A DNA stretch of 64,000 bases. Origin: Natronosalvus vescus (GTDB lineage: Archaea > Halobacteriota > Halobacteria > Halobacteriales > Natrialbaceae). Location of the stretch: positions 2,108,001 through 2,172,000 of the forward strand of contig NZ_CP099546.1 in the NCBI RefSeq assembly GCF_023973145.1. The letters are read 5' to 3'. Made by a program: the position numbers and the translations under genes. The first letter of the stretch is position 1. Each line of letters opens with the position of its first letter. The notes under the pieces were generated by a model. The model was not told the DNA's origin. It saw only the letters and a program-made list of their open reading frames with translations, and did not search any database. Below are positions 9,580 to 13,430 of this stretch, piece by piece.

Positions 9580-10575
9580 ATGAGGAGTTGGCTGCGCCGA
9601 CGTATCAACTGGGGCTACGAGCAGTTGCTGTCCCGGGAAGTGTCCGGCGCACCGACCCACGTCGCCGTAATCCAGGACGGCAACCGTCGCTACGCTCGCC
9701 AGCGCGGCGACGACGCCCCGGACGGCCATCGCGCGGGGGCCGATACCACCGAACGCGTCCTCGAGTGGTGCCAGGAGATCGGCGTCGAGGAACTCACGCT
9801 GTACGCCTTCTCGACGGAGAACTTCGACCGCCCGGAACACGAACGCGAGGCGCTGTTCGACTTACTCTGTGAGAAACTCTCCGAGTTCGCCGACGCCGAT
9901 CGCGTCCACGACAACGGCGTCTGCATCCGCGCCATCGGCGACCTCGAGCGACTCCCACCGCGCGTACGTGAAACGATCGACTACGCGGAATCACGGACTG
10001 CGGAATACGACACCTTCGTCCTCAATATCGCGCTCGCCTACGGGGGCCGGGCTCAGCTACTCGAGGCCGCCCGAAGCGTCGCTCGAGACGTTGCCGATGG
10101 AAACCTCGACGCGACGGAGATCGACGGCGAAACGGTGCACGAGCGATTGTACGCCCAGCCGGTTCGCGACGTCGACCTGATCATCCGCACCGGCGGCGAC
10201 GAACGCACCTCGAACTTCCTGCCCTGGCACGCCAACGGCAACGAGGCCGCGGTCTTTTTCTGTGCACCGTACTGGCCGGAGTTCTCCAAGGCCGACTTCC
10301 TGCGAGGCATCCGCACCTACGAATCCCGCGAAGCCTCGTGGCGACGAACGCGCGCCCGTCGCGCACTCGCCCTGATTCGAGCCGTCGGGAGTCAGGAACT
10401 GTCCGAGGCGACATCCGTCTTGGCTCGTTTCCGGGATTCGCTGCCGACTGCCGAACAGCCGGAGGCGGCGACGCTCGAGGGGACGGAATCGACCGGTACC
10501 GAGGGAGACCCGGGACAGGTCGCCACCGACGGCGGGGACGCGACTGACGTGGCTGGCAGTGACAGAACGCAGTAA
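9580..10575 (+). CDS. uppS: cis-Prenyltransferase, catalytic type (undecaprenyl diphosphate synthase family)
   Basis: 331 residues. It condenses isopentenyl diphosphate onto an allylic primer to make a long cis-polyprenyl diphosphate, the precursor of the dolichol-type glycan carrier. Motifs in order: HVAVIQDGNRRYAR with catalytic Asp33, GHRAGADT, TLYAFSTENFDRP, and DLIIRTGGDERTSNFLPWH. After FLRGIRTYESREASW the protein continues into an Arg-rich then Glu/Thr/Gly-rich tail of about 80 residues and lacks the C-terminal RxG (usually RRFG) motif of homodimeric enzymes. The ATG at 9580 gives the family-like start MRSWLRRRINWGYEQLL; the frame is open upstream. See the non-catalytic paralogue at 11176-11808. 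Confidence 0.93.
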   Translation: MRSWLRRRINWGYEQLLSREVSGAPTHVAVIQDGNRRYARQRGDDAPDGHRAGADTTERVLEWCQEIGVEELTLYAFSTENFDRPEHEREALFDLLCEKLSEFADADRVHDNGVCIRAIGDLERLPPRVRETIDYAESRTAEYDTFVLNIALAYGGRAQLLEAARSVARDVADGNLDATEIDGETVHERLYAQPVRDVDLIIRTGGDERTSNFLPWHANGNEAAVFFCAPYWPEFSKADFLRGIRTYESREASWRRTRARRALALIRAVGSQELSEATSVLARFRDSLPTAEQPEAATLEGTESTGTEGDPGQVATDGGDATDVAGSDRTQ

Positions 10576-10614
10576 GCACGTTCCTCCATCCAATCCCGAG
10601 CGAATTCGAGTCGC

Positions 10615-10995
10615 TCAGTCACCGAGACGCTGGCATCGCTCGATCCAACACACCTCGTAGGTCTCCGGTTCGACGACGCGACCGCTCAAATCGTGAATCG
10701 TTTCGATCCCTTCGTCCGCACACCAGTCGATACAGGTTCGGTACACCTCCAAATCGCATTCCTCGCGGACTCGCTCGTCACGATGGATCCGAATCGTGTC
10801 GGCACCAGCGAGAGCGGCCACGAAGGCTCGCGTGTGTCCATCAGAGAAGTACCACGCTCCCTCGTGTTCGAACACCGGCAGCGAATCATAGTTCGGATCG
10901 TCGACGTCGAACCACTCGAGTACCGCTACGAGTTTTTCTTTCGAGAGATAGAGCTGGGTTGGGCGGACATCCTCGAGTCGCAAGCACCGGCTCAT
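10615..10995 (-). CDS. Small ParB/sulfiredoxin-fold-like protein, function unknown
   Basis: 126 residues, standalone. The segment SLPVFEHEGAWYFSDGHTR followed by AFVAALAGADTIRIHRDE resembles the ParB/Srx core (a short strand, GHxR motif, alanine-rich helix, then a strand). The remainder has four cysteines (CDLEVYRTC, CADEG, CWIERC), and no partition helix-turn-helix domain is present, so it is not a chromosome-partition ParB. It lies between the two cis-prenyltransferase paralogues and converges on the first. The fold suggestion is an inference from motif pattern only. Confidence 0.6.
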   Translation of the reverse strand: MSRCLRLEDVRPTQLYLSKEKLVAVLEWFDVDDPNYDSLPVFEHEGAWYFSDGHTRAFVAALAGADTIRIHRDERVREECDLEVYRTCIDWCADEGIETIHDLSGRVVEPETYEVCWIERCQRLGD

Positions 10996-11175
10996 GACAT
11001 TCCGTCTCTCTCACCGCTTGTGAGCGTTTGGTACACACGATCACCGAGACACCTGTTCACCGACTCGGCTTCCGCGACACCAATACACCGACGCTGCCGG
11101 ACTGCCGGCGACGGCTGGCTATGGCCGGCTGTCGGCGAAGGCGGCCGGCTGATGGCGGCCTGCGGAACGAGAAAC

Positions 11176-11808
11176 TCACGTCCCGAATCGCCTCGAGCGG
11201 TTACAGAACTCGCGGACGGCCCGGAGGAAGTCCCGTTTGCGAAAGTCCCGCCAGTTGACGTCGGTGAAGTACAGCTCGGAGTACACGGACTGCCAGATCA
11301 TGAAATCGGAGAGTCGCTCGGCACCGGTCTTGATCACCAGGTCGGGTTCGTCGGGAAAGATCAGGTGTGCTTCGACGGCCTCGTCGTCGATGGCATCGGG
11401 CTCGAGTTCGCCAGCCTCGACCTGCGTTGCTAGGGTTTGTACCGCTCGGGTAAACTCGTCTTTGCCGCCGAGGCCGATTCCGATCTGGATTGGGGCGTCG
11501 GCGGGGTGGCTGTCGTCCGGCCCCCGAACGGCTACCTCGCGTGGTGTCTCGAGTTCTTCGAGTTCCCGTTTGAGCGTCGGGACGGCCGCCCGGTCGAGCA
11601 CGCTGACGTAAACGGTGATCCGGTCGGCGTACTCGACGGCCCACTCGAAGAACGCCGCGAGCGTCTCGTAGGCACCGCGCTCGAGCAGGTCGCGTTCGGT
11701 GATAACGAGGGCGACGTGTGCCGGGGGCTCACCACCGTGGCGGCGTATTCGGGCGGCGAGGTAGCGTTCGTACAGACCCACGGACGCTCGTTTCGTCGGC
11801 CGCTCCAT
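11176..11808 (-). CDS. Non-catalytic cis-prenyltransferase paralogue, NgBR-like partner candidate
   Basis: 210 residues. The C-terminal half is clearly of the UppS family: DLVIKTGAERLSDFMIWQ, then SELYFTDVNWRDFRKRDFLRA, ending NRSRRFGT, which matches the NRERRFG end of bacterial UppS. However, the N-terminal catalytic motif is absent: PPAHVALVITERDLLERG replaces the usual HVAxIMDGNxRW, so the catalytic Asp is missing. The ENW/ENF region is also replaced (VYVSVLDR). The RxG triplet is at residues 207-209. This is the reciprocal of the paralogue at 9580-10575. Start at ATG 11808; a longer frame runs upstream through a GGAAGT repeat. Divergent from the DUF92 gene. Confidence 0.85.
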   Translation of the reverse strand: MERPTKRASVGLYERYLAARIRRHGGEPPAHVALVITERDLLERGAYETLAAFFEWAVEYADRITVYVSVLDRAAVPTLKRELEELETPREVAVRGPDDSHPADAPIQIGIGLGGKDEFTRAVQTLATQVEAGELEPDAIDDEAVEAHLIFPDEPDLVIKTGAERLSDFMIWQSVYSELYFTDVNWRDFRKRDFLRAVREFCNRSRRFGT

Positions 11809-11979: not shown

Positions 11980-12116
11980 AGAACTGCGATGCGTCGGTGA
12001 TGTCCTCCCCACGTCTACCCAGCCCTCCCGCGGCGCACGCTGGCGACTAGTGGTTCGTTGCACGCCCATGGCCGTTGACGAACCTTCAAGTACCCCCCAC
12101 AGAAAGATCCGATATC

Positions 12117-13430
12117 GTGTCGACACCAGTCCGACGGGCAGGTGCCTTTGGCGCACTCTGTACGCTCTCGCTGGCCGTTCCGATTCTCGGCCCGGAGCTG
12201 TCGGCCCCGATCGCGGTCGTCCTCGCGCTGGTCGCCGTATCGGTCACTGACGGCCCCATTTTCGACCTCTTTGCGTTTCCGGACGACTACTCCGAGGGAC
12301 GGCTGTTCGGTCTGTTGACCTTCGTCCTCGCTGCGACGACGCTCGGACTCCTCGCCGTGAACTGGTCGCTCCCGATGTCGGTCTTCGTCGGCGTGGTATT
12401 CCTCGTCGGCTACGGCGGATTTGCCGAGGCGGTGGCTCGTTCACGAACCGACGCCGACATCCTGCAGACGATCGCGTTCTGTACAGTCGGTGCGCTCGCT
12501 TCCATCGCCGGACAGGCCGGTTCCCGATTTGCCGAGGGGCTCCCGATCGAGAGTGCGGTTCCAGTAATCGTCTTTCTCGCCGTCAGTGGGACGCTTCTCG
12601 CCGCGTTACTTCGGGACGTCCTGATCAGCTACGACGACCCGATCGTGTTGCTCACCGTCGGCCTCTCGCTGTGGCTGCTGGCCGAACTCGAGCCGACGAT
12701 TGGCGTCACCGGGATCGCCGTCGCACTCGCGATTACGATCGCCATCGGCTACGTCTCCCACGCCCTCGGGGCGGCGTCGATCGCCGGGATGCTCACCGGC
12801 ATCCTGCTCGCACTGTTAACGATCGTTCTCGGCGGGTACGACTGGTTCGCCGTCCTCATCACGTTCTTCGCCGTCGGCAGCGTCTCGACGAAGTTTCGGT
12901 ACGAGCAAAAGGCCGATCGCGGTGTCGCCGAAGGCAACGACGGTGCCCGCGGCAGTTCGAACGTCATTGGCAACACGGCGGCGGCGATGGTCGCCGTCCT
13001 CGGATTCGCTGCCAGTGAAGTCGATTTGTTGGCCGTCGATCCACTGTTGTTCCTGTTCGCCTTCGCCGGTGCCGTCTCGACGGCCCTCAGCGACACGCTC
13101 TCGAGCGAGATTGGCAGCGTCTACGACAATCCTCGCCTGATCACGACACTCGAGTCAGTCGAACCGGGAACCGACGGCGCCGTCACCTGGCAGGGCGAAC
13201 TCGCGGGGATCGTCGGCGCGGCGGCCGTTGCAGGGGTCGGCTACGCCGTGTACCCGGAGGTCGGACTCATCGGTGCGCTCGTCATCGCCATCGCCGGCTT
13301 CGCCGGAATGACCGCGGACAGCGTCCTCGGGGCGACGCTCGAGGGCGAGTTCCTCGGGAACCAGAGCGTCAACTTCCTCGCGACGGTGGCGGGTGCACTG
13401 ACGGGGATGCTCGTGTACGCTGCATTCTGA
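12117..13430 (+). CDS. DUF92 family integral membrane protein (VTE6/TMEM19-like)
   Basis: About 437 residues, with roughly 10 or more hydrophobic segments. The second half has the DUF92 pattern: a soluble loop with STKFRYEQKADRGVAEGNDG, the phrase GSSNVIGNTAAAMV, then AGAVSTALSDTLSSEIG, and a C-terminal membrane block containing GMTADSVLGATLEG and NQSVNFLAT. Plant DUF92 protein VTE6 is a phytyl-phosphate kinase, so a role in polyprenyl- or isoprenoid-phosphate metabolism is plausible but inferred. The start is taken as GTG 12117 (VSTPVRRAGAFG); a TTG at 12075 is also in frame. Divergent from the NgBR-like gene. Confidence 0.88.
   Translation: MSTPVRRAGAFGALCTLSLAVPILGPELSAPIAVVLALVAVSVTDGPIFDLFAFPDDYSEGRLFGLLTFVLAATTLGLLAVNWSLPMSVFVGVVFLVGYGGFAEAVARSRTDADILQTIAFCTVGALASIAGQAGSRFAEGLPIESAVPVIVFLAVSGTLLAALLRDVLISYDDPIVLLTVGLSLWLLAELEPTIGVTGIAVALAITIAIGYVSHALGAASIAGMLTGILLALLTIVLGGYDWFAVLITFFAVGSVSTKFRYEQKADRGVAEGNDGARGSSNVIGNTAAAMVAVLGFAASEVDLLAVDPLLFLFAFAGAVSTALSDTLSSEIGSVYDNPRLITTLESVEPGTDGAVTWQGELAGIVGAAAVAGVGYAVYPEVGLIGALVIAIAGFAGMTADSVLGATLEGEFLGNQSVNFLATVAGALTGMLVYAAF

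Follow-up and report, generated by a model that had tools for sequence, protein, structure and literature searches.

Two cis-prenyltransferase (cPT) paralogs in a 64,000-nucleotide stretch of Natronosalvus vescus DNA (the window) very probably encode the two subunits of a single heteromeric enzyme: P0001, a chain that retains the entire substrate site but lacks the C-terminal RxG motif, and P0002, a chain that retains RxG but has lost the catalytic residues (Table 1). We give this reading, in which the complex is predicted from sequence, a probability of roughly 0.88. The motifs, fold, co-occurrence, orthology group and gene order of the pair are direct observations and are laid out below. An archaeal heteromeric cPT is already known from Methanosarcina mazei, and the haloarchaeal pair is a further member of this group; new here are a phylum-wide rule, the contrast with archaea that carry a single cPT gene, and a residue-level prediction. 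A single M. mazei case would thereby be extended to the whole phylum, including genetically tractable haloarchaea, and the second cPT-like gene of Halobacteriota genomes would acquire a role.

Table 1. Features of the cPT locus, in window coordinates.
Feature	Coordinates	Strand	Remarks
P0001, putative catalytic cPT subunit, 331 aa	9580..10575	+	ATG at 9580, stop codon ending at 10575; D33 in DGNRR, ENFxR at 80-84, no RxG, disordered C-terminal tail
DGNRR codons of P0001	9676..9690	+	Residues 33-37: catalytic Asp33 and archaeal/eukaryotic Arg36
Orphan ORF, 126 aa	10615-10995	-	Between the subunit genes
P0002, putative non-catalytic partner subunit, 210 aa	11176..11808	-	ATG at 11808, stop at 11176; cPT fold, no DGN/ENW, C-terminal RxG at 207-209, then one residue (T210)
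Codons of the P0002 C-terminal end	11176..11190	-	R207-F208-G209-T210 and stop (RxG plus one residue)
DUF92/TIGR00297 membrane protein	12111..13430	+	Head-to-head with the partner gene; arrangement conserved

Two chains with complementary motifs

P0001 is a member of the PF01255/TIGR00055 family, with a full-length domain, the catalytic Asp, DGN and the substrate-binding residues. It matches PF01255 at 233 bits (E 2.8e-69, profile positions 1-216 of 219) and TIGR00055 at 240 bits (cut-off 110); a PDB sequence search places it beside UppS and DHDDS, and its substrate site is whole (DGNRR, ENFxR and RTGGxxRxSNF). The PF01255 match stops just ahead of the RxG end, and beyond the domain the chain continues instead into an Arg-rich stretch and then an acidic low-complexity tail; a first-pass annotation of this DNA had described an Arg-rich and disordered tail. 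The same annotation placed DGNRR at Asp33, and both position and motif agree with our alignment to E. coli UppS and to human DHDDS and NUS1, all PDB-verified; where it speaks of "ENW", the catalytic family has ENF, like DHDDS.

For P0002 the PF01255 match is confined to the C-terminal half (profile positions 115-219; 92 bits against a cut-off of 27, E 5.5e-26), and a PDB sequence search sets the protein beside bacterial UppS. Its AlphaFold2 model, built with 37 partner sequences, has the full cPT fold (mean pLDDT 88, pTM 0.84), indicating that even the N-terminal half, which retains little sequence similarity, remains that of a cPT. The PDB neighbours listed for this model are cPTs, human DHDDS among them, and an orthologue from another family yields a likewise confident AlphaFold2 model with cPT neighbours. 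The annotation had read P0002 as devoid of DGNRR and ENW while keeping a WQSVYSELYF block and RxG, and so we find it: T37 and R39 occupy the Asp and Asn columns, so that the catalytic residues of DGN are absent, the Arg30, Ser71, Asn74 and Arg77 columns are missing along with those of the catalytic Asp and Asn28, and the ENW region is lost across the partner family, whereas WQSVYSELYF lies at residues 172-181 and RFG at 207-209. A charged first helix (residues 5-23) directly precedes the domain, and no N-terminal membrane segment is evident in the sequence or in the AlphaFold2 model. The 3.84 Mb genome has no PF01255 genes other than those of P0001 and P0002. Open frames upstream of the two genes (9346 TTG; 12156 GTG) were rejected as parts of them, because homology sets in no earlier than about residue 9-13, counted from the chosen starts.

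To place the motif columns, reference sequences of E. coli UppS and of the human DHDDS and NUS1 domains, each matched letter for letter to PDB chains, were aligned to Halobacteriota sequences, 103 from the catalytic and 68 from the partner family. In the catalytic family, the UppS D26 column holds Asp in 98/98 filled rows, N28 is kept in 100/100, E73/N74 and R77 in 102/102 each, and R200 and S202 in 103/103. At its RxG columns there is no consensus Arg or Gly: R242 is mostly replaced by Ser or Glu (Arg in 5/103) and G244 mostly by Arg, Gln or Lys. Partners carry Thr, Ser or Ala in the D26 column in 60 of the 68 sequences and keep R242 in 67, while G244 and E213 (of ELYF) are present in all 68. 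For the window pair, then, the catalytic Asp occurs only in the catalytic chain and RxG only in the partner, in line with the proposed complementarity, and every sampled Halobacteriota pair has complementary motifs.

The pair is conserved across Halobacteriota

Both cPT types occur in 289 of the 294 Halobacteriota genomes sampled, a count that overstates its independent weight, since 294 genomes are not 294 independent events and the contrast rests on very few evolutionary ones (one old split and one loss). Within the class Halobacteria the partner is present in 195/195 genomes and the catalytic gene in 194/195, the exception (G071) being a draft of ~120 contigs. Elsewhere in the phylum, 95/99 genomes have both types; the partner is missing from one (G268; 140 contigs, 89% complete), and in three members of a single family (f17; G201, G210 and G219; 86-91% complete) we found neither type. 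Weak partner matches in another family (f19) were confirmed as partners. Neither gene thus occurs regularly without the other, the pattern against which the first-pass annotation had set its heteromer proposal: both single-type genomes are drafts.

No fetched Halobacteriota cPT scored with both DGN and RxG in our motif table, and a looser later scan of the phylum turned up a small number of chance hits to these short patterns, inside long tails.

A Methanosarcina precedent

MM_0618 and MM_1083 of M. mazei are reported to form a heteromeric cPT with C45-50 products (as cited in PMC8131916). A further cPT of the same species, MM_0014, lacks RxG and was crystallised as a versatile, active homodimer that makes short products (PMC8131916). 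One genome in our sample (G289) encodes three cPTs: a P0001-type protein, a P0002-type protein and a third that is nearly a copy of MM_0014 (459 bits to PDB 7CAQ) and so identifies the genome as Methanosarcina. The Methanosarcina spelaei genome likewise contains exactly one gene of each of the first two types. By elimination, rather than from the MM_0618 and MM_1083 sequences themselves, we infer that the P0001- and P0002-type genes of Methanosarcina are probably the orthologues of this reported pair. The partner family forms one clade (support 100/99) that includes the window copy and the Methanosarcina copies; catalytic sequences cluster, though not firmly (56/96), in a tree without divergent extras. 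Both the M. mazei and the haloarchaeal pairs belong to the same phylum and combine an RxG-less catalytic chain with an RxG-bearing non-catalytic chain from the same two families, but in the haloarchaeal pair the catalytic chain extends into a long, disordered acidic tail that usually ends in Ala-Asp. The literature searched yielded no biochemistry of a haloarchaeal pair.

Since MM_0014 is active without RxG, loss of this motif is by itself no proof of a heteromer, and P0001 could act alone as an RxG-less homodimer of the MM_0014 kind, with P0002 a dispensable regulator or degenerate paralog. We consider this very unlikely. MM_0014 resembles P0001 in lacking RxG but differs in its short products and homodimeric state, and MM_0014-like sequences form a separate clade on a long branch, with which P0001 does not cluster; moreover, the C45-50 enzyme reported from M. 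mazei is, as cited in PMC8131916, the pair and not MM_0014. P0002-type proteins are present in practically every P0001-bearing genome, and throughout the phylum they keep invariant RxG, ELYF and W-Q, which would not be expected of a dispensable remnant.

Gene order and the DUF92 neighbour

The P0001 and P0002 genes lie tail-to-tail around a small orphan gene for which Pfam and NCBIfam give no match and the fetched loci of relatives no homologue. Among pairs with coordinates, the two genes are within 10 kb of each other in 97/114 cases in Halobacteria and 30/52 elsewhere in the phylum, and all 127 of these close pairs are convergent. As convergent genes do not form an operon, co-transcription provides no argument for a heteromer; the arrangement is compatible with an inverted tandem duplication.

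On its other side the partner gene stands head-to-head with a DUF92 gene in haloarchaea, Methanoperedens, Geoglobus and other families. Both the uppS-DUF92 link and the relation of DUF92 to dolichol-kinase-like enzymes of the cytidylyltransferase family have been described previously (PMC5898192). We regard the DUF92 protein as a putative kinase-type enzyme in the isoprenoid pathway to which the cPT pair would belong. Because this neighbour stays in place even when the catalytic gene lies elsewhere, one might suppose that P0002 is a pseudoenzyme that pairs with a protein other than P0001, for instance as an adaptor for the adjoining DUF92 enzyme. This seems very improbable to us: a membrane enzyme without a cPT domain offers neither a cPT-type dimer interface nor an active site for an RxG tail, and P0002 keeps exactly the tail that is missing from P0001. 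That P0001 and P0002 are two independent enzymes with different products, as the presence of two cPT paralogs in one genome might suggest, is scarcely credible given the absence of the catalytic columns from P0002.

A predicted trans-acting C-terminus

As a heteromer, P0001 and P0002 would elongate an allylic prenyl diphosphate with IPP to a polyprenyl diphosphate, which would in turn give rise to the archaeal dolichyl-phosphate sugar carrier. P0002 would serve as a cPT pseudoenzyme in place of the homodimer's second chain; indeed, summed over P0001 and P0002, the pair possesses the fold and all the catalytic columns of homodimeric UppS, whether from E. coli or from archaea with a single cPT. 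It differs from these enzymes in that they hold both motifs in one chain, the bacterial ones also reading DGN-G-R and mostly extending 7-14 residues past RxG.

The C-terminal end of human NgBR passes over the dimer interface and enters the active site of DHDDS; there the backbone of NgBR L291-G292 holds the S2 phosphate, and K293, through its terminal carboxylate, makes contact with DHDDS R37 and R85 (PMC7573591). R37 is the first Arg of DGN-R-R (Gly in bacterial UppS) and R85 the Arg of ENFxR; P0001 has Arg at both matching places, R36 and R84. By analogy, the P0002 C-terminus would reach across the interface to the P0001 site, with R207-F208-G209 organising the diphosphate sites. Because the P0002 end and the P0001 arginines match those of human NgBR and DHDDS, we predict that the C-terminal carboxylate of T210 forms a salt bridge with R36 and R84. 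The partner's last carboxylate and the additional Arg in DGNRR thereby offer a testable, residue-level link to the human enzyme that underlies congenital glycosylation disorders. For the haloarchaeal pair, we infer complex formation, the trans-acting C-terminus, the product and its chain length.

The position of the chain end is generally maintained: it falls exactly one residue past RxG in 119/120 partners and 85/85 single archaeal cPTs. Archaeal chains also read DGN-R, whereas the bacterial chains we checked have DGN-G in 36/38 rows (in a set that includes one misfiled archaeal sequence) and mostly run on for 7-14 residues beyond RxG.

The DHDDS/NgBR-type split claimed for this locus is thus recovered in the window pair: DGNRR and ENFxR in the catalytic chain, a division of labour, and a DGN-less partner in which RxG is followed by a single last residue, as in human NUS1. 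That P0002 would work like NgBR is well supported by these sequence features. Unlike NgBR, P0002 has no N-terminal transmembrane domain, and it is far more UppS-like than NUS1 (ELYFTDV, W-Q-S-V-Y). Profile comparison relates the partner family to human NUS1 over the whole domain with a probability of 97.5%, and more strongly to E. coli UppS (99.9%).

Origin of the split enzyme

For comparison, we surveyed three archaeal phyla around one Thermococcus, one Thermoproteota and one Thermoplasmata genome (61, 21 and 59 genomes, respectively). Nearly every genome has one cPT matching the whole profile (1-219), and the fetched sequences carry DGN and RxG in the same chain. Two of them had been flagged as missing RxG: the first has RMG, and the second is truncated where its contig ends. 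The pair in nearly all Halobacteriota and complete single cPTs in three other archaeal groups together indicate that the enzyme split at the base of the phylum.

In trees of the shared C-terminal domain, AU tests are compatible with several relationships: p 0.29 for partners and NUS1 as one clade and p 0.22 for NUS1 with DHDDS, both on 104 columns with a NUS1 branch length of about 9-10, and p 0.28 for the catalytic and partner families as sisters. No Asgard locus emerged when genomes were scanned with the partner profile; whether eukaryotes inherited the split enzyme or re-invented it is a question that Asgard genomes could address. A tentative scenario, to which we give somewhat less than even odds, is that the Halobacteriota heteromer originated within archaea, independently of DHDDS/NgBR, by duplication of a homodimeric archaeal cPT, perhaps as an inverted tandem in view of the convergent genes. 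This ancestor would already have had the contact between DGN-R-R and the carboxylate of RxG-plus-one, which is absent from bacterial UppS and would have made the halves separable; Thermoplasmata with both a complete cPT and an RxG-less copy would then represent a second, ongoing split.

Some Thermoplasmata do have a second cPT with DGN but no RxG (L330, L332, L334, L350 and L352, from genomes G421, G425, G409, G475 and G459), and complete copies with both motifs occur beside RxG-less ones (L331, L333, L351 and L353). The RxG-less copy is possibly a second, partial split of the enzyme.

Additional observations on haloarchaeal cPTs

Divergent extra cPTs also occur in Halobacteriota, among them a haloarchaeal DGH-type protein (L110, in G002) and MM_0014-like proteins in several genomes (L107-L109).

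Following a disordered tail of variable length and sequence, 53 of 95 distinct catalytic chains end exactly in Ala-Asp (for example L153, L146 and L349). This ending is found in nearly all haloarchaeal catalytic chains and not in those of methanogens; among nearby genes, with the cPTs themselves counted, it occurs in 9/132. P0001 of the window ends in SDRTQ, without Ala-Asp. The Ala-Asp end of haloarchaeal catalytic chains is possibly a C-terminal recognition motif.
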